From Chloracidobacterium sp. (GTDB lineage: Bacteria; Acidobacteriota; Blastocatellia; Chloracidobacteriales; Chloracidobacteriaceae), in the NCBI GenBank assembly GCA_025057975.1, contig JANWUV010000005.1:124001-188000 (forward strand): a stretch of DNA of 64,000 nucleotides, in the 5' to 3' direction. The first letter of the stretch is position 1, and each line of letters begins with the position of its first letter. Made by a program: the position numbers and the translations under genes. The notes beneath the pieces were generated by a model that was given only the letters and a program-made list of their open reading frames with translations, did no database searches and was not told the DNA's origin. This document shows, piece by piece, positions 5,705 to 20,383 of the stretch.

Positions 5705-7846
<2,142 letters not shown>

Positions 7847-7860
7847 GCGCCGCATTACGG

Positions 7861-9231
7861 CTACACGCCAAGCAGCCAGCGCGCTGTGAAGAAGTAAATC
7901 AGCAAACCGGTGATGTCCACAATCGTCGTCAGCGCCGGGCTGGCGATCACAGCCGGATCAAACTTCAAGCGCGCAGCCGCCAGCGGCAACAGCGCGCCGA
8001 TGAGCGTCGCCGTTACCACCTGCACAGCAAGCGCCACGGCAATGACGCGCGCAACGCCCGCCAAGGTAACGCCGTGGGGCAATTCCGCTCCCTGCGACAG
8101 CCACATCACCTTCGCCCACGCCAAAAAGCCCAGTACGGCGGCTAGAAAGACGCTGACTTGCAGTTCTTTGAAAAACACGCGCCAGGCGTCGCGCGGTGTG
8201 ATTTCACGCAGAGCCAGCGCCCGGACGACAACCGTCGCCGATTGACTGCCGGTGTTGCCGCCGGTGTCCGCCACCATCGGCATGTAGAGCGCCAGAATGA
8301 TGACCTGCGTCAACGTCTCCTCAAATTTGTGGATAATGACGCCCGATACCAACCCTAGCGCCGCCAGACCAACCAACCACCCTACCCGATGTTGAACATG
8401 CTTCCAGAAGGGCGTCCGCAAATAGCCGTCCGTCCCCGTGCTTCCGGTGATCGCCATGAAGCGCCGCATGTCCTCGGTGTGTTCCTGCGTGATGATGTCA
8501 ATGGCGTCGTCGTGCGTGATGATGCCGACCAGTGCGCCGTCTTCGTTGACAATCGGCAGCGCAATGAGATCGTACTTTTGAATGATGCGCGCGGCGTCTT
8601 CCTGGTCATCGCTCGTCCGGGCAAAGATGACATCTTCGTGCATAATGTCGCGCACAGTAGCGTCGCGTCGCGCCAAAATCAGGTCCTTGAGCGACACGAA
8701 GCCAAGCAGGCGGCGGTCGTCGTCCACAACATACGAGTAGTAAATCGTTTCCTTGTCGGGAGCGACTTCGCGCAGGCGCTCAATCGCGGCGGCGACCGTT
8801 AAATCCGGCGGCAGCGTGGCGTAGTCGGAGGTCATCACCGCCCCCGCCGTCCCGTCTGCATAGTTCGTCAAGCGCCGAATGTCCTCACGCTCGGCTTCAG
8901 CCAGCGCCGGCAGCACAGCGTCGCGGTATTCTTCCGGTAACCGCCGAAACAGGTCGGCGCGGTCATCAGGCGGCATGTCAGACAGCAGCCGCGCCATCTC
9001 GGCGCGCGGCAGCGTCCCGACCATCTCCACCTGAAGGCTGGGCGCAAGGTGGCTGAAAATCTCCGTACGCACGCTTGGCGTCACATCGCGGAGAACCGTC
9101 CAGACCGCCTTTGCTTCGAGCTCAGAAAGCGCCTCGGCTGCAACCGCCGGATGGCTTTTTTCGCACAGCGCCCGCAGGGCGTCCGTCGGATTAACAGTCG
9201 TCGCCTGGGCGTCGGTCTGCTGGGGTTTCAC
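7861..9231 (-). CDS. mgtE: Magnesium transporter MgtE
   Basis: Mg2+ channel of the inner membrane. Domain order is complete: N-terminal superhelical MgtE_N domain (about 10-130), a CBS pair (about 135-260; MTSDYATLPPDLTV and EDGALVGIITHDDAIDI), and a five-helix pore domain (about 285-456) with the conserved MVADTGGNTGSQS stretch. The GTG at 9231 has GAGG nine bases upstream and gives 456 residues, the usual length. The open frame runs back to an ATG at 9333, but the added 34 residues are Arg/Pro-rich and unlike the family, and that DNA contains two strong hairpins (9271-9328), so I read it as leader. Confidence 0.93.
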   Translation of the reverse strand: MKPQQTDAQATTVNPTDALRALCEKSHPAVAAEALSELEAKAVWTVLRDVTPSVRTEIFSHLAPSLQVEMVGTLPRAEMARLLSDMPPDDRADLFRRLPEEYRDAVLPALAEAEREDIRRLTNYADGTAGAVMTSDYATLPPDLTVAAAIERLREVAPDKETIYYSYVVDDDRRLLGFVSLKDLILARRDATVRDIMHEDVIFARTSDDQEDAARIIQKYDLIALPIVNEDGALVGIITHDDAIDIITQEHTEDMRRFMAITGSTGTDGYLRTPFWKHVQHRVGWLVGLAALGLVSGVIIHKFEETLTQVIILALYMPMVADTGGNTGSQSATVVVRALALREITPRDAWRVFFKELQVSVFLAAVLGFLAWAKVMWLSQGAELPHGVTLAGVARVIAVALAVQVVTATLIGALLPLAAARLKFDPAVIASPALTTIVDITGLLIYFFTARWLLGV

Positions 9232-9270
9232 CGGAGCGCACCTCACAACAGGCGGAGTCGTGCGGGGCCG

Positions 9271-9328
9271 GCGACGCGGCACAGTGCGTCGCACAAAAGG
9301 CGCGATTGTGCGCCGCGTTGCGCGGCGC
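9271..9328 (-). promoter_or_regulatory. Structured leader of mgtE (two perfect hairpins)
   Basis: Read along the mgtE transcript there is a perfect 8-bp stem with a 3-base loop (GCGCCGCG-CAA-CGCGGCGC, 9328-9310) and then a perfect 7-bp stem with an 8-base loop (GCGACGC/GCGTCGC, 9292-9271), ending about 27 bases before the likely ribosome-binding site. I do not see the conserved core of the M-box riboswitch. A regulatory role is inferred from position only. Confidence 0.4.
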
Positions 9329-9436
9329 GTCAAGTGACAAAGTCAAGGCGCTCGGTGGAGAAAACGTTTGTACCGTCGCCGTTTGGTGTACAGCGGTTCC
9401 CTCTGGACGCTGAGGACAGCCCTACCCCCCGAACTG

Positions 9437-10135
9437 CTACTCGATGCGCAGGCGTCCCCGTGCAATGACTTGCCCCTGCGCGTCAAGTCGCGCCGGCGAC
9501 TCAACAACGACATAGCCGCTCCCTGGCTGGGCGCAGTCGAAAACAAAGCGGTAGTTCTGCTCAAAATCGCCGGCGTAAATCACTTCCTGCGCCGGGAAGA
9601 CCAGTCGTTCACCGTGTTCGTCCAACTCCAGAAACAAGCCGTTGGGATTGACGGAAAAATGCTGGGTGAGGGCGTCAATGTGGCCTCTCCGTAGGCGCTC
9701 CCGATAACGCGCCGTGATGTCCGAAATCCGCTGATTTTCAAAGGCGGCGGGCGGCGGCGCGGGCAGTGCCGTGTGCGGTGACGCCTCCCTCAGCCCCGCC
9801 GCATACCCTATGCTTGGCAACGGATGCGGCGGCGTCTCCGGCGGCGTTAGTAGCGTCGAGAGTTTGTTTTTCAAGTAATCCACTTCCCGCCGAAGTTCCT
9901 GCAGGTCAGCTTCCAACTTGGTGTTGCTCCGGTCAGTTGGTCGGTCGCCGGGTGACGGCGACCGCTCTTCAAGCCGTTCAAGCCGCGCCGCTTGTTTGCG
10001 CCACTGTGCGGTGTCTTCAGCCTGCTCGCGTACCTGCACCTGAAGCGGGCGAATCACGAGGAGATAGAGCGCCGCCAACCCTAGCAAACTCAACGCCGCT
10101 AGCGCCGCCGCCGCCACTGCGAGTACATCGTCCAT
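9437..10135 (-). CDS. Membrane-anchored coiled-coil protein, third gene of tubulin/actin-like operon
   Basis: A 232-residue protein not matching a family I know. One N-terminal transmembrane helix (about 5-30, VAAAALAALSLLGLAALYLLVI) is followed by a charged coiled-coil (about 33-95, VREQAEDTAQWRKQAARLERL and LEADLQELRREVDYLKNKL), a Pro-rich linker, and a compact beta-rich C-terminal domain (about 140-232). The topology would put the coiled coil and C-terminal domain in the cytoplasm. A strong GGAGGAGG site precedes the ATG. The gene lies 27 bases after the actin-like ATPase stop, and its shape (single-helix anchor plus coiled coil) suits a membrane adaptor for the two cytoskeletal-fold proteins. 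That role is inferred. Confidence 0.8.
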   Translation of the reverse strand: MDDVLAVAAAALAALSLLGLAALYLLVIRPLQVQVREQAEDTAQWRKQAARLERLEERSPSPGDRPTDRSNTKLEADLQELRREVDYLKNKLSTLLTPPETPPHPLPSIGYAAGLREASPHTALPAPPPAAFENQRISDITARYRERLRRGHIDALTQHFSVNPNGLFLELDEHGERLVFPAQEVIYAGDFEQNYRFVFDCAQPGSGYVVVESPARLDAQGQVIARGRLRIE

Positions 10136-10162
10136 GCTGGTTTCCTCCTCCCGGACGCTGCC

Positions 10163-13100
10163 CTACTCGTAGCTCACCGGCGACCGACGCGGTTCGGGTT
10201 CGTCAGGGAGCGGCGGCTGGTCGTCATACAAACCAGCCTTGCGTGCCATGTCCTCAATCAGCGGATACGGATGATCCGGCAAACTCGTCACCAGCTTAAG
10301 GTCGGCGTCGGCATAGAGAACGCCTGTGAGAAATAGCGCCAGCGGTGTCAGCGCCGGATAGTGCCGGCCGCCCGTCAAATACCCATTGATGGTCGCCCAC
10401 TTGCGCTGCGGGATGAGGTCGGTTGAACCGCGCGACGTAAACAGCGTTAGCAATGGGTCAAGCGGCTGCGCCGTCCCCGGCGGCTGGACTGTAACCTGCC
10501 GAATATCAGTATCCGGCTCCATCTCGAACAAGCGCTTGAGGTCGGGCTCGCTCCAGCGGTCAAACCACCGTACTGGACGCGGGCCATGCATCATCGCGCC
10601 GTCGCTGACCATCACTTCCGGCAGATTCAAGCCGGCAAACGGCGCGGTGCGCCGCTGGACGGTTTGCGCTCCCGCCACCGCCAGCGCCCCAATCGGCACG
10701 TTAGTTTTAGCGCGGCTGATGTCGCCTTCATTGAGCAACGTCACGTCGTGAATACGCAGGTCGTCCAGACAGGCTTTCGCTTCAGGCGACAGTCCAGCCC
10801 CCGCCCGCCGTTTGAGTCGGTCTAGCAGCGCCTCGGCTTCGGTCAGCAGCGCCGCGCCGGAACGCTCGAAGTCCGCAAAAAGCAACAACCCCCAGGCGTT
10901 GCCGCCCAACACGAGATGGACGCCGTGGGGCAGCCGCGCTTGATTCAGGTTGCGCTCAATCGCCGCCGCCGCCGCTTGCACCAGCCCGTAGGCGAGCAAG
11001 TGCCGGAAGAAGAACTGCGCGCAAAATCGCTGGTAGGCGTCGCGGTAGCTCTGATGCTCCGGCAGCGTCGCGTCGCGCTGACGCTTCAGGATGATGTGCT
11101 CACGGTGGACGAACACTTCACTTTTGAGTTCATTGACGCGCAGCAGGTAGAAGGTCGGCAGCGGCAGGTTGTGTTCGCGGAGTCCCGGCATGTCGGCGAC
11201 ATCCATTTCGGCGGCCGCTAGGTCGTCCGGGGCTAGCAACAGCCCCAGGTGGCGGCGGAACACCTCGGCTCGGCGCAGTTTCAGACGCGGCGACAGGTTT
11301 TGTTCGGCGGTACGGAAAAATTGCCGTCCCGCCAATCGTAGGCTGTCCAGCACAAGAATCTCCGTCCCACGCCGCACGGCGATGTCAGCCGTCCCGCCGC
11401 CTACGTCAATGAATAAATCGAGCCGATCTGGGCTCGGCGGTAAGTTCGCGCCGGCCGCCGCTGCTGCGCTTTCGTCTACGTCCGCTCGGTAGTGCGCGGC
11501 GGCATCAAAATTACGCGCGCCATAACAGAGCTGCTGCACGACGCTGATGCTGCGCCGGTTCTGCTGATGGAACACATCCCGGTCGGTTTTATTCATCGCC
11601 AACGGGAAAGTAAACGTGTAGTCCATCACACGCGCACGCCGATTGAAAAACAGTTCGGCGTGGGCGAACAACAGCAGCAGGCGCAGGAACAGCGCGCGGT
11701 ACGCCGAAGTGCGCGCCTGGTCCCACTTGAGGCTGTCGTGCAGGTCCCAAGCGTTCACGCCGCCGCCGGCCGCTAGCATCCGGTTGAGGCCGTCGGCGTA
11801 GAGGTTTGGGATGGCGGCGGCGAAGAAGTGCTCAACGGCGAGCGTGTCCGGCGTGACATTTTGCAGACCGGCGGTGCGGCGCGTCAGCAGGGTGGTAGAG
11901 AAATAGCCCTTTGCACCGCCCCAGTTGAACGGGGCAAACCCAAGGCGATTCGCGCCGTCGCCGTTCCACAGGCGCAGCGGCGCCAGTGAAAACCGAAGCG
12001 TATCAGTGACGCCGGCGGCGGCGAAGGCGACCGACGTGTTGCTTGTCCCGAAATCTACGGCAAGGTGAGCATCGGCAAGTGGCCGCGCGCCGGCGTCAGG
12101 CAGGCGAGCCAGTAAAACCACCCCGCGTTCAACGTCGCGTCCTTGGACAGGCCACCACCAACTCAAAGCGCGCGGCCGGTTCGGCGTACGCTCATCGGCG
12201 GCGGGCGGCGTCAGCAACGTGACGTATTCATCCTGCGCCGCGCCCAGTTCGTAGAGATCGCCCAGCCGTCCGGCTTCGTCCACGAGTCGCCAGCGCCCGG
12301 CGCGTTCACGTTGTCCCAAGCCATGCGCGGCGTAAAAGTGCCACTGCGGGTCCACTTTCGGCGGCCACAACGACAACGAGGCCACCGTCAGGTCGCGCGC
12401 CTCGAAGTAGCGCGCCGTCCAAGGAACTTCCCGTCCGCAGAGTTGGAACGTCCATTCCACGCTTTGCCCATCGAAGGCCAACTTGGCGCGTAAGTTCGCC
12501 CCGTCCTCCGCCAGGAGTTCGGGAAAATAGCTCAACAGCCGCGTCGTGACCGGCGCCATGCAGATGGAAACCTTTGAGGCGTCGGCCAGACCTTGCAGCC
12601 GATGCACCGGATGAATGAGCGCCAACCGCTGGTCGTCGCGGGGATAATCCACCCGTCCGGTGAAGTCGCTGAGAAACAGGCTCGCCAGATCAACAATTTC
12701 GTCCTGCGGCCCCAGCGGGAGCGTCTCCAGCCGCCCGCGCGTCTCAACACCGAGGGCGTTCGGCCCCAGCATCCGGTAGCTCACCGGCGACGGTCGTCCC
12801 GGCCCCAGCGCCGTCGTCATCCAGCTCGGCGGCGCTGGAAACCGATCCACGAGAAAGAAGGTTCGCCCGCCGTTGGCGTTTGGTTTTTGCAGCGGGTACA
12901 ACTCCAGCAGTTCCGTCGGCTGCGCCTGCGCGCGAACGAGCGGCCAGCTGGCTGGACTCGGCGACAGACGGGGCGTTTGGTCAAGGCCGTAGGGCGCAGG
13001 ACCAAACGCTGCGTCGCACAGCGCGTCAAGGATTTTTCCGAAGGTCAGCGGCAGCGCATCGCGCGCTACGCACCGCAGATGACGGTGGCACCGGTCGCGC

Positions 13101-13618
13101 TCAAAGCCGTCCGTCAGCAGTGCGTCCCGCGTCCGCGCCCAAGAAAGCAGGTCGCCGTCAAGGTAAGGGCGCAGATAGCCGTCGGTTCGCCAGCGGGAAC
13201 GCGCTCGGGCCGGGAAAAAGATCACGTCGGGATAGACGCCGCCCACCGTCGTTGCACCGACGCTCAGGATTTGCACGTCGTGAAATTGTCCGGCCTGCGG
13301 ATGGGTGGTTTCCAGCGCCGGCTGCAAGGCGGGCGGATACTCGCGCCCCAGCACGGCAGGCGTCAGCGGCTCGGTCAGGTAGGCGACGCCCATGGCGTGC
13401 AGGACAAACAATGTCAACCACTCCCAGCGAGCGGTTTCGTCGCCCTGCTCGACGGCCTGCCGAAACCGGTACGCCGTCGCCCAGACGGTCGGCAGGGTCT
13501 CGAAGAAGCGTGGGTCGGGCGTCGGCGGCGTAACCCGATGCGGATCAATCGGGAAGAACGTGCGGGGACGAAACCCCCCGACTTCACCAAGCATCCCCTG
13601 GTTGATGAGCAACCCCAT
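10163..13618 (-). CDS. Large actin/Hsp70-fold ATPase with unknown N-terminal half
   Basis: 1151 residues. The C-terminal half carries the nucleotide-binding signatures of the actin/Hsp70/MreB superfamily: phosphate-1 LAVDFGTSNTSVAFA (519-533), phosphate-2 DLFIDVGGGTADIAV (734-748) and an adenosine-type motif HLVLGGNAWGLLL (901-913). Residues 1-515 resemble nothing I can name and contain no membrane segment. The general plan (about 1000 residues, actin fold) recalls the SrfB family of enterobacteria, but I could not test this. The ATG has AGGA seven bases upstream. It sits 38 bases after the tubulin-like gene and 27 before the coiled-coil gene, so the three are surely cotranscribed. Confidence 0.88.
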   Translation of the reverse strand: MGLLINQGMLGEVGGFRPRTFFPIDPHRVTPPTPDPRFFETLPTVWATAYRFRQAVEQGDETARWEWLTLFVLHAMGVAYLTEPLTPAVLGREYPPALQPALETTHPQAGQFHDVQILSVGATTVGGVYPDVIFFPARARSRWRTDGYLRPYLDGDLLSWARTRDALLTDGFERDRCHRHLRCVARDALPLTFGKILDALCDAAFGPAPYGLDQTPRLSPSPASWPLVRAQAQPTELLELYPLQKPNANGGRTFFLVDRFPAPPSWMTTALGPGRPSPVSYRMLGPNALGVETRGRLETLPLGPQDEIVDLASLFLSDFTGRVDYPRDDQRLALIHPVHRLQGLADASKVSICMAPVTTRLLSYFPELLAEDGANLRAKLAFDGQSVEWTFQLCGREVPWTARYFEARDLTVASLSLWPPKVDPQWHFYAAHGLGQRERAGRWRLVDEAGRLGDLYELGAAQDEYVTLLTPPAADERTPNRPRALSWWWPVQGRDVERGVVLLARLPDAGARPLADAHLAVDFGTSNTSVAFAAAGVTDTLRFSLAPLRLWNGDGANRLGFAPFNWGGAKGYFSTTLLTRRTAGLQNVTPDTLAVEHFFAAAIPNLYADGLNRMLAAGGGVNAWDLHDSLKWDQARTSAYRALFLRLLLLFAHAELFFNRRARVMDYTFTFPLAMNKTDRDVFHQQNRRSISVVQQLCYGARNFDAAAHYRADVDESAAAAAGANLPPSPDRLDLFIDVGGGTADIAVRRGTEILVLDSLRLAGRQFFRTAEQNLSPRLKLRRAEVFRRHLGLLLAPDDLAAAEMDVADMPGLREHNLPLPTFYLLRVNELKSEVFVHREHIILKRQRDATLPEHQSYRDAYQRFCAQFFFRHLLAYGLVQAAAAAIERNLNQARLPHGVHLVLGGNAWGLLLFADFERSGAALLTEAEALLDRLKRRAGAGLSPEAKACLDDLRIHDVTLLNEGDISRAKTNVPIGALAVAGAQTVQRRTAPFAGLNLPEVMVSDGAMMHGPRPVRWFDRWSEPDLKRLFEMEPDTDIRQVTVQPPGTAQPLDPLLTLFTSRGSTDLIPQRKWATINGYLTGGRHYPALTPLALFLTGVLYADADLKLVTSLPDHPYPLIEDMARKAGLYDDQPPLPDEPEPRRSPVSYE

Positions 13619-13656
13619 AGGCTATTCCTAGGTACTTCCTAAGCCGGTCGGTGATG

Positions 13657-15360
13657 CTATGCGGCGGCTCCTCCGGCTCTGGCGAAAACTTCCGCCCAGA
13701 CGAGTCGGGCGTAGTCGCCGCGCTTGAACCCCGGCGGCGGCGTCCAGCCGTAGAAGTCAAATGAAGTCAACGCTACCGCCGACTGCCCGAAGCGCAGCGC
13801 CTCCTGCGGCGTATTGTCGGCGGCCAGACCAAACAGCCGTGTCCGTCGTTTCATTCGCTCAATCACGGCGCGCTCCGCGCCGGGCGCAATGAGCTTGTCG
13901 AGGTCAGCGCGGATGTCAGGACTCCACCCTAACGTACGGTCGGGCGACACCATATCCACCATGGTGTCGCGGATGAGGTCAAGCGCCGTTTGGTAGGCGA
14001 GCCGGTCACGTTCCTGCCGGGTTGGGTCAAGCTGGTAAAGCCGGCGCAGGCCGCCAGGGTCGTCGCTCCAGCCACGCGCGTCCGCGTCCCAATCAATTTG
14101 GTATTTCAGCAAGTGAACGAGCACCGCCGTCGCCAGAAAGACTTTTTCAGCGTCCACCGGCCGACCGTTGACGGTGTAAATGGGCAAATCGCAGAGGCGC
14201 AGCGTCCCCAGCGCAAGCGTCGCGTCGCCCGACGCAAGGCTATACTCCCGTCCGCCGCCGACGCTGTTGCCGGCGAAGTAGTTGAGGGCTGCGACGGCGG
14301 CGACGACTTCCGTCGCGTTGAGCGGGTTGCGTTGGGTTTGTCCGCCGTTGCTCCAGCGTTCGAGGGCGTCCGGCTGTGGTTTGCCGATGAGGTAGAGTTC
14401 GTCAAAGGTCGGCGCGAGGATGTCGCGGTAATAGACGAGGCTGTGACGGGCGCGCAGCGGCAGGTCGGTCGGGTCGGCGTAGAAGCGGGTGAGGATTTGC
14501 CGCGCCAAGGCGATGCGTTCTTCGTCGTTGAGGACGGCGAAGGCTTCATGCGCGGCGTACTGCTGCGCCATTCGCCGGGCCTCTTCTTCCACATAGCGCG
14601 CGTCCGCCTGCCGGTCTTCAGGCAGCGGGCTGAAGGGCGGCGGTGGCGGCAGGAAGTAGGGCATCAGCAGACAGCCGCCGATGGTCCAGTTGAGGTTGCC
14701 GCGCTGCCGTTCGCGGGCGAGGAACTGTCCGATGACGGGCAGGGCGCAGGCCCCCGTGCCGCCATAGACGCTGCCGCAGATGAAGAAACGAACCTGACTT
14801 TGTTTGAGCGTATTGAAGTCAATTTGGCTGCCGGCCGGCGAGTTCCGGTCGGTCAGCGACGCGGCGAAGGCGGCGATGACGGGCGAACCGATGAAGGGCT
14901 TCTGGTAAAAGCCCCGGTTGATTTTCACATCGAGGTCTTTATCTTCGTAGAAGGCGTAGAGCAGGGGCGTCCCGTCGCGTTTGCCGGGCGCGTGGGCGAG
15001 TAGTTCGCGCAGGGTTGAAATCGGTTTGTCAAACCCCGGCAGCGCGAGCGGGTCAAAGTCTCGAATCTGGGTGTTGACCGTCATCGCCCATGGACTGGTC
15101 GCCAACGACGCCACGCCCGGCTCGCCGTCGCCGTCCTGCATCAGGTGTTGGATGTGACGGTAGCGACGCAGGGTGTCGTTGAGGACGTTGAGCGCGCCGG
15201 AGCTACGGTCGGGGTCAATGCGCCAGATTTCGAGTTCGTCGCCGGCGCTGGTCGGCCGTCCTTGGTGCAGGCGTGTCGGGAAGCCGACGGCGAGGAGTCT
15301 CACGAGCGCGTCGGCGACGCGCGTGCCATTCCCGCCGGTGACGATGATGATGTTTTTCAT
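13657..15360 (-). CDS. Tubulin/FtsZ-like GTPase-fold protein
   Basis: 567 residues. Three loops match the nucleotide site of the tubulin/FtsZ superfamily in order: a T1-like loop VTGGNGTRVADAL right after the first beta strand (9-13), a T2-like loop IWRIDPDRSSGAL (Asp49/Asp51), and a T4-like glycine signature GSVYGGTGACALPVI (200-206, compare GGTGxG). An obvious catalytic T7 motif (NxDxxD) is not visible. It may belong with the bacterial 'tubulin-like' family Tubulin_2 (PF13809) or with the FtsZ-like families described around membrane remodelling; this needs a profile search. It is the promoter-proximal gene of the operon with the actin-fold ATPase and the coiled-coil anchor. No clear Shine-Dalgarno precedes the ATG. 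Confidence 0.85.
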   Translation of the reverse strand: MKNIIIVTGGNGTRVADALVRLLAVGFPTRLHQGRPTSAGDELEIWRIDPDRSSGALNVLNDTLRRYRHIQHLMQDGDGEPGVASLATSPWAMTVNTQIRDFDPLALPGFDKPISTLRELLAHAPGKRDGTPLLYAFYEDKDLDVKINRGFYQKPFIGSPVIAAFAASLTDRNSPAGSQIDFNTLKQSQVRFFICGSVYGGTGACALPVIGQFLARERQRGNLNWTIGGCLLMPYFLPPPPPFSPLPEDRQADARYVEEEARRMAQQYAAHEAFAVLNDEERIALARQILTRFYADPTDLPLRARHSLVYYRDILAPTFDELYLIGKPQPDALERWSNGGQTQRNPLNATEVVAAVAALNYFAGNSVGGGREYSLASGDATLALGTLRLCDLPIYTVNGRPVDAEKVFLATAVLVHLLKYQIDWDADARGWSDDPGGLRRLYQLDPTRQERDRLAYQTALDLIRDTMVDMVSPDRTLGWSPDIRADLDKLIAPGAERAVIERMKRRTRLFGLAADNTPQEALRFGQSAVALTSFDFYGWTPPPGFKRGDYARLVWAEVFARAGGAAA

Positions 15361-17544: not shown

Positions 17545-17790
17545 ATGAAGCCTGTGATTTGTACCTTCTGTAACTCTGAAATTTACACCTACGTCGGCCC
17601 GGAACCGGTTGAACTAAAAGCGGTTCACTTCAAGCCGACCCGCCCTGCGTGGCCCGCGCCGAAGTCGGGCGACCCGTTGTTTTGTCCGGTCTGCGGCAGC
17701 CGTTTCGTTGGCGTTTCTGTTCAAAATCGGCAACTGCGTATGGTGGTTAGCTCTGCGTACACCGGCTCAGGCAACGTCGGTAAGCTCTAG
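17545..17790 (+). CDS. Small zinc-ribbon protein
   Basis: An 81-residue protein with two CxxC knuckles (CTFC, Cys6/Cys9; CPVC, Cys47/Cys50) spaced as in a zinc ribbon. The first ATG that makes this compact protein is at 17545; the frame opens 27 bases earlier but without benefit. It is divergent from the TMTC-like gene and its 3' end overlaps the convergent NUDIX-MBL gene by 24 bases. Function unknown; the fold could bind nucleic acid or protein. Confidence 0.6.
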   Translation: MKPVICTFCNSEIYTYVGPEPVELKAVHFKPTRPAWPAPKSGDPLFCPVCGSRFVGVSVQNRQLRMVVSSAYTGSGNVGKL

Positions 17791-19329
17791 TTCGCCAGTT
17801 GTCCGCCAGGCGACCTTGCCTTCGCGCGCCAGTTTGATGAGGTGCGCCTGTACCGACCGTGCCGCCAATGGGTGCAGCGCGGATGGCGTGTCGGCATACA
17901 CCGTCGCCGTCAATGCCGCGACGGTCGTTTTTCCTTCCCGAAGCGCCGCCAGAATCTTCGCCTCACGTTGTAGGCGATGCGCGATATAGCTTTCAATGAC
18001 GGCGTAGGGTTCAGTCAGCGCCGGCCCGTGACCGCCGGCGATCAATCGGATGGGCAAGCCCAACAGACGACGCAGCGACGCCAGATAGTCCGCCATATCG
18101 CCCTCGTCTGGATCAATCAGGACGCTCCCCAGCCCCACCACCATGTCGCCGCTAAGGAGCGTGCCGGTAGTCTCCTCAAGAAAGCACAGGTGTCCGCGCG
18201 CGTGGCCCGGCGTGAAGACGGCGCGCAGCCGCCAGCCGGAGCACATTGTCGCCGTCAAACTGTCGTTGCTGGGCGCTGCTGGCAGTTCACAGACATCGCC
18301 GTCGTCCAGCGTTCGGGAAATTGTCACTTTACCGTTTAGTAGCGCGGCTGTAATAGGGTGCGCCGCAACCGGGACGTTCCAGCGCCGGCCTAGATGCGCT
18401 GCACCGCCGACATGATCTGGGTGGTGGTGCGTCAACCAGATTTCCCGCAAGCGCGCGCCGGTTTTTTCAGCCAGTTGCGTCAAGTGAGCGTCCAGTCGGG
18501 CTTGTTCGTCGGGATAAGGTGAAGCCGGGTCAATGACGATAATTTCGCGCTCGCCAACTAGATAACAGTTTGTGTGGGTCGCTGGGGGGAGCGTTGGCGT
18601 CCGCACAGGAAATGTCACAACGCCGGGCGCTAGTTCGATAAACTCCGGCGGCTGACCGTGAGCGGCAGGGTGGTCGTGGGATAAAACGCGCAGGCGGTCA
18701 AAATCGCCCTGCTGCGCTGCGCCTTCCCGAATCCAGCGATAGAGGCTGCGGATACTGTGAAGCGTCGGCGGCACAAGCCGTACATCGCCGCGCGCCCAAG
18801 CGCTCAGTGCATCGGCGGGCGTCGTCCAGTTGCCTTCCACCATTTCGGCAGACCAAAGGTGCGGCTCTTGGTGGTCATCCAAGGGGCTGACAAAGAACGT
18901 CGTGTCGTAGCGACGCGGTACGCCGACCGGCGTCACCCACCGACCGGCGGGGATGAAGCGACGCGCATCAATCTGTACGGCAAACTGCGCACAAACTTCC
19001 GCAAACGTCAGGCGTCCGGCCATTAGGTCAGCGCGGACGGCGAGGCGCATTTCCGTGCTGGTCAGGCGGCTTTCGGCCAGCATCACGCCGGCTTCTTCAA
19101 AGACCTCGCGCACAGCGCAGGCGCATTGGGCGGCGTGTTCGGCGTCGGCGGCGTAGTGCACCGGAATCCGGCTGTCCTCTGGGTCACGGCGACCGCCAAG
19201 GAACGCATGGTAGCCGCCCAGAAACGGCATAGCTTCGGCGCGTTTGGCCCAGAAAAAGCGCCAGACGCCGGAAGAGTCTTGGCGGAGTAGAATGACAGCT
19301 GAAGCAGGCTTCGGAACAACAGGCGTCAT
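17767..19329 (-). CDS. NUDIX hydrolase fused to LACTB2-type metallo-beta-lactamase
   Basis: 520 residues. The N-terminal part (about 8-190) is a NUDIX domain of the NUDT19-like type, with an interrupted Nudix box: GGRRDP, then after an insert the helix REVFEEAG (74-81). The C-terminal part (about 225-520) is a metallo-beta-lactamase fold hydrolase with HHHPDH at 301-306, the TPGHARGH and SGDMVVG metal motifs, and a C-terminal winged-helix-like segment (ALREGKTTVAALTATVY) as in LACTB2. In human cells LACTB2 is an RNase and NUDT19 a CoA pyrophosphatase; the substrate of this fusion is open. The frame stays open to 20016 but that upstream part is antisense to the next gene; ATG 19329 fits the domain start. 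Confidence 0.88.
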   Translation of the reverse strand: MTPVVPKPASAVILLRQDSSGVWRFFWAKRAEAMPFLGGYHAFLGGRRDPEDSRIPVHYAADAEHAAQCACAVREVFEEAGVMLAESRLTSTEMRLAVRADLMAGRLTFAEVCAQFAVQIDARRFIPAGRWVTPVGVPRRYDTTFFVSPLDDHQEPHLWSAEMVEGNWTTPADALSAWARGDVRLVPPTLHSIRSLYRWIREGAAQQGDFDRLRVLSHDHPAAHGQPPEFIELAPGVVTFPVRTPTLPPATHTNCYLVGEREIIVIDPASPYPDEQARLDAHLTQLAEKTGARLREIWLTHHHPDHVGGAAHLGRRWNVPVAAHPITAALLNGKVTISRTLDDGDVCELPAAPSNDSLTATMCSGWRLRAVFTPGHARGHLCFLEETTGTLLSGDMVVGLGSVLIDPDEGDMADYLASLRRLLGLPIRLIAGGHGPALTEPYAVIESYIAHRLQREAKILAALREGKTTVAALTATVYADTPSALHPLAARSVQAHLIKLAREGKVAWRTTGELELTDVA

Positions 19330-19390
19330 AGGGCAATGATTAGCGTACACTGCGCTGGGTGGACGATACACGCTTTGGAGGCGAGCCGTC

Positions 19391-20383
19391 ATGTCGCGTC
19401 GGCTAGTGTGGGTTGTCGTTTGGCTGACGGTTTGGTTCGCCGGGGCGCAGGCGCAATCGGGAGATGCGTTTACCGTCGCCGTCCTGCCACCGCGTCTAAC
19501 GGATAACGTTGGCGGCGCATTGGGGGATACGATGGTAACGGCGCTTGAGCGGGCGCTGGCGCACGTCGGGTTGGTGGTATTGCCGCGCGCGCAGGTGTGG
19601 TCGGCCGTCGGCGACGCCGCTCCCAACTTCAATCCAACCTGCATTGAGGCGCAGGCGATGGGCGCGCGGGTAGGGAGCGCCGGGTACGTGCTGGCGGCGC
19701 TGCAACGCGGCGAACGCAGTACGACCGACCGGCGAACCGTCATTGGCGGGACGCTGCATCTCTTCGCCGTGGAGACGCGCACCGGGCGGTTGTTGGCGAG
19801 CGAACACTTGGATTTTATCGAAGACAGGGGTGGGTTTCTTGCAGCGATAGCGCCGTTGGTGGAAGCGGCGGCGGCGCGTTTCGCTGAACGGTGGCGTACG
19901 GCGCAGGCGCAGCTCGCTGCGGCAGCCGGACGGGACGAGATCAACTCAACGGCGATTGACTTACGGACAGGAGACATTCCGCCCGGCGTGACGCCGCCGG
20001 TTCCACAAACGCGCATCCGGCCAAAGCCGACGGACGCGGCGCGGAGTGCAGGGGTGGTAGCAACGGTGAGCGTCGAAGTTGTGGTGACGGAAGGCGGTGA
20101 TGTCGGCGAAGTAACGATTGTGCGTTGGGCCGGCTACGGGTTGGAGGCGGCGGTAGAGGCGGCGCTCCGGGCGACTCATTTCAAACCAGCGACATGTTAT
20201 GGAAAGCCGGTTGCGGCGCGTTTTCTGGTGGACTTCAACTTTCGGGCGGCCTCCCAAGCAGATAGGGTTCAAAGCCGACCCCACTGCGTCGCAGTAGATC
20301 AGCGCCAGCGCGAAACGCCAGCGCCGACCGGGCGTACGCGGTTTCTAAAATGTGCCGTTTGTCCTGTATCGGCTGGTCGCTAA
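19391..20383 (+). CDS. Secreted protein with C-terminal TonB domain
   Basis: 330 residues. Signal peptide (1-21, ending FAGAQA), then a domain of about 150 residues resembling periplasmic proteins that bind or sense (FTVAVLPPRLTDN..., like the FlgO/curli-assembly type N-terminal fold), then a TonB C-terminal domain (about 215-285) with VEVVVTEGGDVGEVTIV and the closing VDFNFR. A GGAGG-type site lies ahead of the ATG. The normal TonB domain ends at residue 285; the last 45 residues are of odd composition and lie opposite the convergent gene at 20235-20594, suggesting that an original stop codon was lost. Divergent from the NUDIX-MBL gene with a 61-base gap that must hold both promoters. Confidence 0.85.
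   Translation: MSRRLVWVVVWLTVWFAGAQAQSGDAFTVAVLPPRLTDNVGGALGDTMVTALERALAHVGLVVLPRAQVWSAVGDAAPNFNPTCIEAQAMGARVGSAGYVLAALQRGERSTTDRRTVIGGTLHLFAVETRTGRLLASEHLDFIEDRGGFLAAIAPLVEAAAARFAERWRTAQAQLAAAAGRDEINSTAIDLRTGDIPPGVTPPVPQTRIRPKPTDAARSAGVVATVSVEVVVTEGGDVGEVTIVRWAGYGLEAAVEAALRATHFKPATCYGKPVAARFLVDFNFRAASQADRVQSRPHCVAVDQRQRETPAPTGRTRFLKCAVCPVSAGR

Follow-up and report, generated by a model that had tools for sequence, protein, structure and literature searches.

A predicted tubulin-fold protein and a predicted actin-fold protein encoded side by side with a membrane protein in Chloracidobacterium and in other bacteria

A 64,000-nucleotide stretch of the 3.5-Mb genome of a Chloracidobacterium species of the Blastocatellia (Acidobacteriota) (the window; G000:C5:124001-188000) carries three consecutive minus-strand genes. 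They encode a predicted tubulin/FtsZ-fold protein (Z), a large protein with a predicted actin/MreB-type ATPase core (A), and a membrane protein (M), and the gaps between them are 38 and 27 bases. The Z-A pair is present in at least six bacterial groups, and the two proteins are sometimes fused. The usual operon order is B-S-Z-A, followed by M where it is recognized; B is a von Willebrand factor A (vWA)-type protein, and S is a small membrane protein. The Z-A pairing is no accident, and the system is real, widespread, and under-described. We suggest that Z-A-M is the core of a conserved B-S-Z-A-M system, which would be an envelope-coupled, membrane-tethered scaffold of two nucleoside triphosphatases (NTPases). 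We give this reading a probability of roughly 60%. The features of the three genes are as follows, in window positions.

13657 to 15360, minus strand: Z, predicted tubulin/FtsZ-fold protein, 567 amino acids (aa) (open reading frame [ORF]; predicted structure)
15325 to 15336, minus strand: T1-like GGNG of Z, residues 9 to 12 (sequence)
14749 to 14775, minus strand: T4 loop GSVYGGTGA of Z, residues 196 to 204 (sequence, alignment)
10163 to 13618, minus strand: A, large protein with a predicted actin/MreB-type ATPase core, 1151 aa (ORF; MreB_Mbl match; model and structure matches)
10652 to 12079, minus strand: predicted actin-fold core of A, residues ~514 to 989 (VIA match to MreB)
12035 to 12055, minus strand: phosphate-1 motif DFGTSNT of A, residues 522 to 528 (sequence, alignment)
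11459 to 11476, minus strand: connect-1-like DESAAA of A, with E716 invariant in 15 of 15 rows (alignment)
11384 to 11407, minus strand: phosphate-2 motif DVGGGTAD of A, residues 738 to 745 (sequence, alignment)
10895 to 10906, minus strand: adenosine motif GGNA of A, residues 905 to 908 (sequence, alignment)
9437 to 10135, minus strand: M, putative membrane anchor, 232 aa (ORF)
10052 to 10108, minus strand: predicted transmembrane helix of M, residues 10 to 28 (hydropathy of 2.49 over 19 residues)
9440 to 9709, minus strand: Md, conserved C-terminal domain of M (alignment and genome search)
10142 to 10151, minus strand: purine-rich ribosome-binding sequence before M (direct reading of the sequence)

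We take the loops of Z to be T1 and T4 and the motifs of A to be phosphate-1, connect-1, phosphate-2, and adenosine. An original prediction, made from the letters of this DNA, had claimed three minus-strand genes with these lengths for Z and A and these gaps, the T1 and T4 loops, the phosphate-1, phosphate-2, and adenosine motifs, and one membrane helix in the third protein. All of these agree with the ORF coordinates and the features above. It had also claimed that a tubulin-fold and an actin-fold NTPase share one operon with a membrane protein, and the predicted structures agree.

We modeled Z with AlphaFold from a 16-row alignment, and the model had a mean predicted local distance difference test score (pLDDT) of 81 and a predicted template modeling score (pTM) of 0.88. 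All 50 of the VIA matches listed were FtsZ, CetZ, PhuZ, BtubA, or tubulin structures by title. The best was Mycobacterium tuberculosis FtsZ (Z score, 15.8; root mean square deviation [rmsd], 4.3; 215 residues), spanning residues 1 to 408 of Z. Past residue ~404, the model is mostly helical, without a very long helix. The GGTGA of the T4 loop is invariant in 16 of 16 aligned Z proteins, and G9, G10, and G12 are nearly invariant. Just ahead of the presumed H7 helix, Q343 is kept, and N345 nearly so. The Pfam family Tubulin_2 (PF13809) matched Z with 17.3 bits against a cut-off of 27. Five homologs were scanned with the same family; two were over the cut-off (L011, 44.0 bits; L033, 42.0 bits) and three were under it (L010, 14.3 bits; L009, 14.0 bits; L025, 21.2 bits). 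A PDB sequence search with the Z profile returned nothing at an expect value (E) of ≤0.01. On the evidence of its model, Z belongs to the FtsZ/tubulin fold and has T1- and T4-type loops.

The AlphaFold model of A (15 rows) had a mean pLDDT of 69 and a pTM of 0.68 and was poor at both ends. Structure matches cover residues ~514 to 989 and not the N-terminal ~510 residues. This core matched Thermotoga maritima MreB (1jce) with a VIA Z score of 20.1 and an rmsd of 3.9 over 290 residues. The next matches were MamK (19.2), the Hsp70 DnaK (18.5), FtsA (17.4), and actin (17.1). MreB ranked first for A in the VIA, Pfam, and PDB profile searches; DnaK and mortalin ranked first in Foldseek. The Pfam family MreB_Mbl matched A with 28.7 bits, over its cut-off of 27. 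Eight residues of the motifs (D522, G524, T528, D738, G740, T743, D745, and G906) are invariant in 15 of 15 aligned A proteins. Pfam SrfB, a family named in the original prediction, gave no match to A at E ≤ 1, with HMMER filters that drop weak matches. We conclude from the model that A has an MreB/actin-type ATPase core inside a protein of 1151 residues.

Pfam found nothing over cut-off on M. The Md domain comprises its last ~90 residues and is 17 to 25% identical to M proteins outside the genus in the alignment. Md recurs in a second, cysteine-rich protein, whose gene adjoins M in L010, L018, L019, and L022. In the window genome, the second Md protein is encoded elsewhere (L053:2501-4153, on G000:C1); it has 550 aa, a cysteine-rich N terminus, and Md at residues 185 to 287. 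All seven genomes of the genus have exactly two Md matches. A genome search found Md in 13 of 58 relatives, and 12 of the 13 have Z, including G484 and G488. A 156-aa ORF at L057 (G012:C422) contains Md.

All seven genomes that we examined from the genus have Z, with 85 to 93% identity in the six other genomes; in G002, it is in two pieces on two contigs. This identity, together with the predicted folds, rules out chance or artefactual ORFs. In G004 (L013), Z-A-M is arranged as in the window, and the downstream genes have the size and strand of MgtE and the kinase described below. The system lies on 2.6- to 2.7-Mb contigs in three genomes of the genus, so a plasmid origin is unsupported here; the contigs of the remaining four (17 to 240 kb) are uninformative on this point. 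The original claim of a chromosomal, not plasmid-borne, locus is therefore supported by three genomes of the genus, but it does not apply everywhere, because a Gloeothece copy is on a 47.5-kb plasmid.

To find homologs, we took two peptide patterns from an alignment of four Z rows and scanned the genome contigs of 84,980 species with them. The 19 loci obtained belong, by record title, to Acidobacteriota, Bacteroidota, Bacillota, Poribacteria, and one Nitrospirae metagenome-assembled genome (MAG). Plasmid records added Gloeothece (Cyanobacteriota) and one Prevotella record. Our locus table held 32 loci, all found through Z, and 31 were counted, since L017 was dropped for a contig-cut Z that overlaps the A ORF. 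A is directly after Z, one gene on, or fused to it, on the same strand, in 28 of the 31, and it accompanies Z in both loci from the plasmid collection (total, 30 of 33). The other three Z loci are L029, where the contig ends inside Z; L033, where 260 bases are left on the contig; and L032, where a truncated 326-aa Z is followed by 9.6 kb with no A. One gene stands between Z and A in L012. In this same-genus relative, it is a methyltransferase gene (L012:7494-8657). Two diverged Z copies occur in G484 (Blastocatellia), one full length (L021) and one cut by the contig end (L029). Structure prediction and a neighborhood survey of homologs had been named as checks in the original prediction. The first found the FtsZ/tubulin fold for Z and the actin/Hsp70 fold for residues ~514 to 989 of A, and the second found that Z and A co-occur. 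Neither of the results named there as refuting, a lack of these folds or homologs that never co-occur, was obtained.

We also searched whole genome samples. Z is in 8 of 199 Acidobacteriota genomes (E ≤ 1e-5). The reverse search with A gave some match at E ≤ 1e-5 in 195 of the 199. Among the matches listed (to E of ~1e-9), 8 genomes exceed a short match to the phosphate-2 region, and they are the same 8 that have Z. The other A matches in Acidobacteriota resemble MreB, and the window genome's own was tested and is MreB. In the phylum of Dyadobacter, 7 of 247 genomes have Z (E ≤ 1e-5), each with A at the locus, one of them cut by a contig end; A at E ≤ 1e-15 found three genomes, all among these seven. 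In the phylum of L023, Z is in 2 of 299 genomes (E ≤ 1e-10), and A follows in both (L023 and L055). The Gloeothece plasmid, typed as mobilizable, encodes Z, A, an Md protein, and B (L060; NC_014503.1:30753-47550). Its Z is annotated as "tubulin-like doman-containing" and its A as hypothetical, and B is oriented divergently. A tblastn search of the plasmid records with the window A and the L050 fusion found nothing; since L060, a locus that the search with Z had detected, holds A by profile, this negative reflects BLAST sensitivity only.

Z and A form a single ORF in three loci: L020 (Acidobacteria bacterium AH-259-G07; 1689 aa), L037 (G145, Acidobacteriota; 1599 aa), and L050 (G448, from the Dyadobacter-phylum sample; 1615 aa). 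The L037 and L050 fusions are 34% identical over 1660 columns. Therefore, this form of the fusion is old, and since it comes from two phylum samples, the pair is not jointly open to the doubt of a sequencing slip. We weighted L020 lightly, because one missing stop codon in a draft assembly could produce such a fusion. In both trees, L020 falls within the Blastocatellia clade, apart from the L037/L050 clade. At least two fusion events would thus have occurred, provided that L020 is not a sequencing slip.

Trees of Z and A from 29 loci have their main groups in common, including cross-phylum ones that join the Nitrospirae MAG with Bacteroidota and the acidobacterial L028 with Poribacteria. Shared groups are expected if the pair moves as one unit; MAG binning error could also yield the cross-phylum grouping. 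The A tree was a quick search, and deep joins are unsafe in both trees because of long branches. The positions of the L037/L050 pair and of L060 differ between the trees. Z and A distances correlated with an r of 0.986 over 105 pairs, but this value is inflated by shared species history, and the case for co-inheritance therefore rests on the tree groupings. On this basis, Z and A have been inherited together and, it appears, transferred as a unit.

The original prediction described a three-gene operon. Z-A-M is real, but the usual unit is larger, and the window holds part of it. In most loci, B (414 to 620 aa in the alignment, one cut) and S (127 to 186 aa) are upstream of Z. Of the 16 B rows aligned, 14 carry the vWA-type motif D-x-[ST]-x-S-M; in L019, P replaces the last S, and L022 is cut. 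A loose lipobox, a pattern without a control, is in 11 of 16 B copies. Where the Pfam VWA family matched B, the score was below cut-off (L018, 17.5 versus 26.4 bits), and the window genome's own B had no Pfam vWA match at E ≤ 0.01. S has 3 or 4 predicted helices in the three proteins checked. B of the window genome is on contig C3, not beside Z, and matches B of L010 with an E of 2.3e-58. It is at L035:7306-8820 and adjoins S at 6823-7272; this S was itself a row of the S profile. In the relative G001, the order B-S-Z-methyltransferase-A-M is found at one place. Since the whole unit is together there, the operon was probably split within the genus.

Other neighbors vary. They include FGE-type genes (L009 and L018), TPR genes (L010 and L019), and an HSP70 gene after A in Foetidibacter (L025). 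ZorA/ZorB-like motor genes are directly after M in two Poribacteria and one Acidobacteria MAG (L024:15066-18024, L031:15817-18841, and, in the MAG, L028:16894-19844). The best PADLOC matches to ZorB1 had E values of 2e-17 to 1e-15, and ZorA of L028 was weak (5e-5). An OmpA-domain gene is two genes past M in L024. In L028, S and Z are separated by an inserted gene for an RHS-repeat protein of 1710 aa (L028:4827-9959).

The Z-A pair is an extra system in this genome, because FtsA, FtsZ, and MreB proper are encoded by separate genes. The genome's FtsA (379.3 bits; cut-off, 175.85) is directly before its FtsZ (437.4 bits; cut-off, 295.2) at L059, which rules out Z and A as the division pair. MreB proper (351 aa; 506.9 bits) is at L062, and A scored 30.9 bits with NCBIfam mreB, well under the cut-off of 365.75, so that A as MreB proper is also ruled out. 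The ftsA-ftsZ pair is the textbook case of adjacent actin-fold and tubulin-fold genes. The claim that such folds seldom share an operon therefore needs correction: the combination is less rare than stated, and this genome has the textbook pair too. ZipA has one N-terminal helix and a C-terminal domain. M has the same layout, and Z-A-M thus resembles FtsA-FtsZ-ZipA both in this and in its adjacent actin-fold and tubulin-fold genes. However, the order is Z then A, whereas ftsA precedes ftsZ in L059. A is closer to MreB than to FtsA by VIA (20.1 versus 17.4) and is nearly three times larger than FtsA, and Z, unlike FtsZ, lacks a T7 motif near H7. FtsA tethers FtsZ, according to passages of PMC5832921.

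Several results weigh against a conserved scaffold of this kind. B was labeled near Z in 24 of the 31 loci, S in 18, and Md after A in 15, so these partners were not recognized everywhere. The B and S labels are circular for rows that built the profiles; independent labels number nine loci for B and three for S (both in L012, L028, and L055; B also in L036, L037, and L046 to L049). No Md protein was labeled in the Dyadobacter and Foetidibacter loci, in L045 to L048, or in the fused L037 and L050. Conversely, Md is present in G012, an 83% complete genome in which we found no Z. Of the seven Dyadobacter-phylum loci that hold A, four escaped the A search at E ≤ 1e-15. The A model is weak outside its core. 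Foldseek on Z was also weak, with a best E of 9.5e-4, dehydrogenases among the tubulins, and TM to the query of ≤0.21 among the matches listed. When the Z profile was aligned by hhalign to the genome's own FtsZ, only the T4 region matched (E, 0.13; probability, 0.5%), and A matched the genome's own FtsA only at phosphate-2 (E, 0.0046; probability, 7.6%). These near-empty alignments mean that kinship rests on fold and motifs. Finally, in a test on sequence, 15 of the 16 aligned Z proteins lack the T7 pattern NxDxx[DE]. The sole match (L023) is ~145 residues past the presumed H7 start, and the genome's own FtsZ, as a control, carries T7 as NLDFAD. With no T7 motif near H7 in any of the 16, FtsZ-style polymer-driven GTP hydrolysis is doubtful.

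In the scaffold that we favor, Z and A would bind each other in a fixed stoichiometry. The Z-A complex may form, or regulate, an assembly at the inner face of the membrane, where M would hold it in a layout resembling that of FtsA and ZipA holding FtsZ. B would face outward via a lipid anchor, and S may be the membrane link. We propose that B senses or binds an envelope ligand and so sets the nucleotide state of the Z-A assembly. The Md-bearing protein and the variable neighbors (FGE-type, TPR, HSP70, and ZorA/ZorB-like motors) could then be lineage-specific outputs. In our view, a division or DNA-segregation apparatus is less likely than a scaffold or surveillance machine coupled to the envelope. 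A more specific version is tentative. It sees a composite machine built from a tubulin-fold GTPase and an actin-fold ATPase as an obligate 1:1 pair, at times joined in one polypeptide. A membrane anchor would connect this pair to a vWA sensor outside the cytoplasm and, in certain lineages, to ion-driven motors of the ZorAB type. We found no described counterpart of such a machine.

It is less likely that Z and A truly polymerize and form a membrane-remodeling or vesicle/shape machine. Makarova and Koonin (2010; PMC2875224) described FtsZl1 operons that include genes for vWA, GTPase, and OmpA proteins and put forward membrane remodeling as their role. According to passages of the same paper, FtsZl1 proteins mostly combine a long coiled coil with a C-terminal domain that is helical, and passages of PMC9871819 treat Tubulin_2 proteins as a divergent FtsZ-like group. 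Our system appears related to these operons. Both have, in the passages concerned, a diverged tubulin-fold protein with membrane proteins in an operon, and a canonical FtsZ as well; B of our system would be the counterpart of the vWA protein. Two of the five Z relatives were over the Tubulin_2 cut-off, and L024 has an OmpA-domain gene near M. However, intact unfused Z proteins have mostly 482 to 593 aa (757 in L036). No GTPase was among the Pfam matches of the neighbors scanned, with some neighbors unscanned and no GAP1 model used. Neither the large actin-like partner nor a Z-A fusion appears in the passages of PMC2875224, where "actin" is never an operon partner. Within the literature covered, which in that paper excluded supplement families A1-A2 and B1-B9, we found no report of an operon that pairs a tubulin-like with an actin-like protein in this way. 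Among FtsZl1/vWA systems, it is the actin-like partner and its natural fusion to Z for which we found no report. Polymerization would suit the tubulin and actin folds with their conserved nucleotide loops, as well as the membrane proteins M and S and the vWA-type B. The lack of a T7 motif near H7 and the presence of canonical FtsZ, FtsA, and MreB in the same genome speak against it.

A conflict (defense) system of the type discussed by Kaur et al. (2020; PMC7159879) is unlikely, but it would account for several observations. B or S would sense an invader at the envelope, Z-A would assemble, and Md- or motor-linked effectors would act. Passages of that paper describe GAP1-N2 DO-GTPase conflict systems with tubulin-domain and vWA proteins, one vWA being extracellular, with FGE (FGS) modules, zinc ribbons, and membrane proximity. 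Points in common are the tubulin-domain protein accompanied by a protein of vWA type, the FGE modules, zinc ribbons, and closeness to the membrane, and the copies of Md on a core component and also on variable modules recall the effector-associated domains described there. However, those systems center on a DO-GTPase and GAP1, whereas the constant pair of our system is a tubulin-like and an actin-like protein; in these passages, tubulin and HSP70 in GTPase systems are non-overlapping themes. The patchy spread of Z in three phyla, the grouping of Z-A across phyla as a unit, the FGE-type and TPR modules alongside, and the copy on a mobilizable plasmid fit defense. So do the ZorA/ZorB-like genes directly after M, which recall Zorya, but they are in three loci only and none is beside Z-A-M in the window. 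On the other side, no PADLOC model matched Z, A, or M of the window at E ≤ 1, and the window neighbors that were scanned are not known defense genes; the whole window was not scanned for defense. The system is also kept in all seven genomes examined from the genus, and the phage records had no match to the window Z at E ≤ 1e-3, by which we rejected a phage origin of Z.

It is improbable that A, instead of being an actin-type partner, serves as an Hsp70-like chaperone in the folding or remodeling of Z. The DnaK score in VIA is close to that of MreB, Foldseek ranks DnaK and mortalin first, and a true HSP70 gene follows A in Foetidibacter. However, MreB was first in the three other searches, and in our judgment its constant pairing with Z, and its fusion to Z, fit a structural partner better than a chaperone. 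Filaments of tubulin- and actin-fold proteins move DNA in other systems and one copy is on a plasmid, but a TubZ- or ParM-like plasmid- or chromosome-segregation system is very improbable here, as M, S, and the lipobox present in many B copies suggest a link to the envelope, and no segregation-type DNA-binding family was over its Pfam cut-off among the neighbors scanned, which were not all of them.

The window neighbors scanned with Pfam were a kinase-WD40 protein, MgtE, a TPR membrane protein, a metallo-beta-lactamase, and a TonB_C protein. The serine/threonine kinase fused to WD40 repeats (5705 to 7846, plus strand) adjoins the MgtE magnesium transporter (7861 to 9333, minus strand). An ORF at 17767 to 20016 (minus strand) combines a weak NUDIX match with the metallo-beta-lactamase. 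Its long N-terminal part overlaps the TonB_C ORF (19391 to 20383, plus strand) and may be spurious.

The two cytoskeletal NTPase folds usually occur apart or, when paired as in FtsA-FtsZ, on distinct proteins. Here, across six or more bacterial groups, they are constant neighbors, and fusion has occurred, it seems repeatedly. They may offer a direct handle on whether tubulin- and actin-type proteins can act as one stoichiometric machine. Z-A would also give a concrete, testable core to operons of the FtsZl1/vWA type, whose function in 2010 was no more than a prediction.

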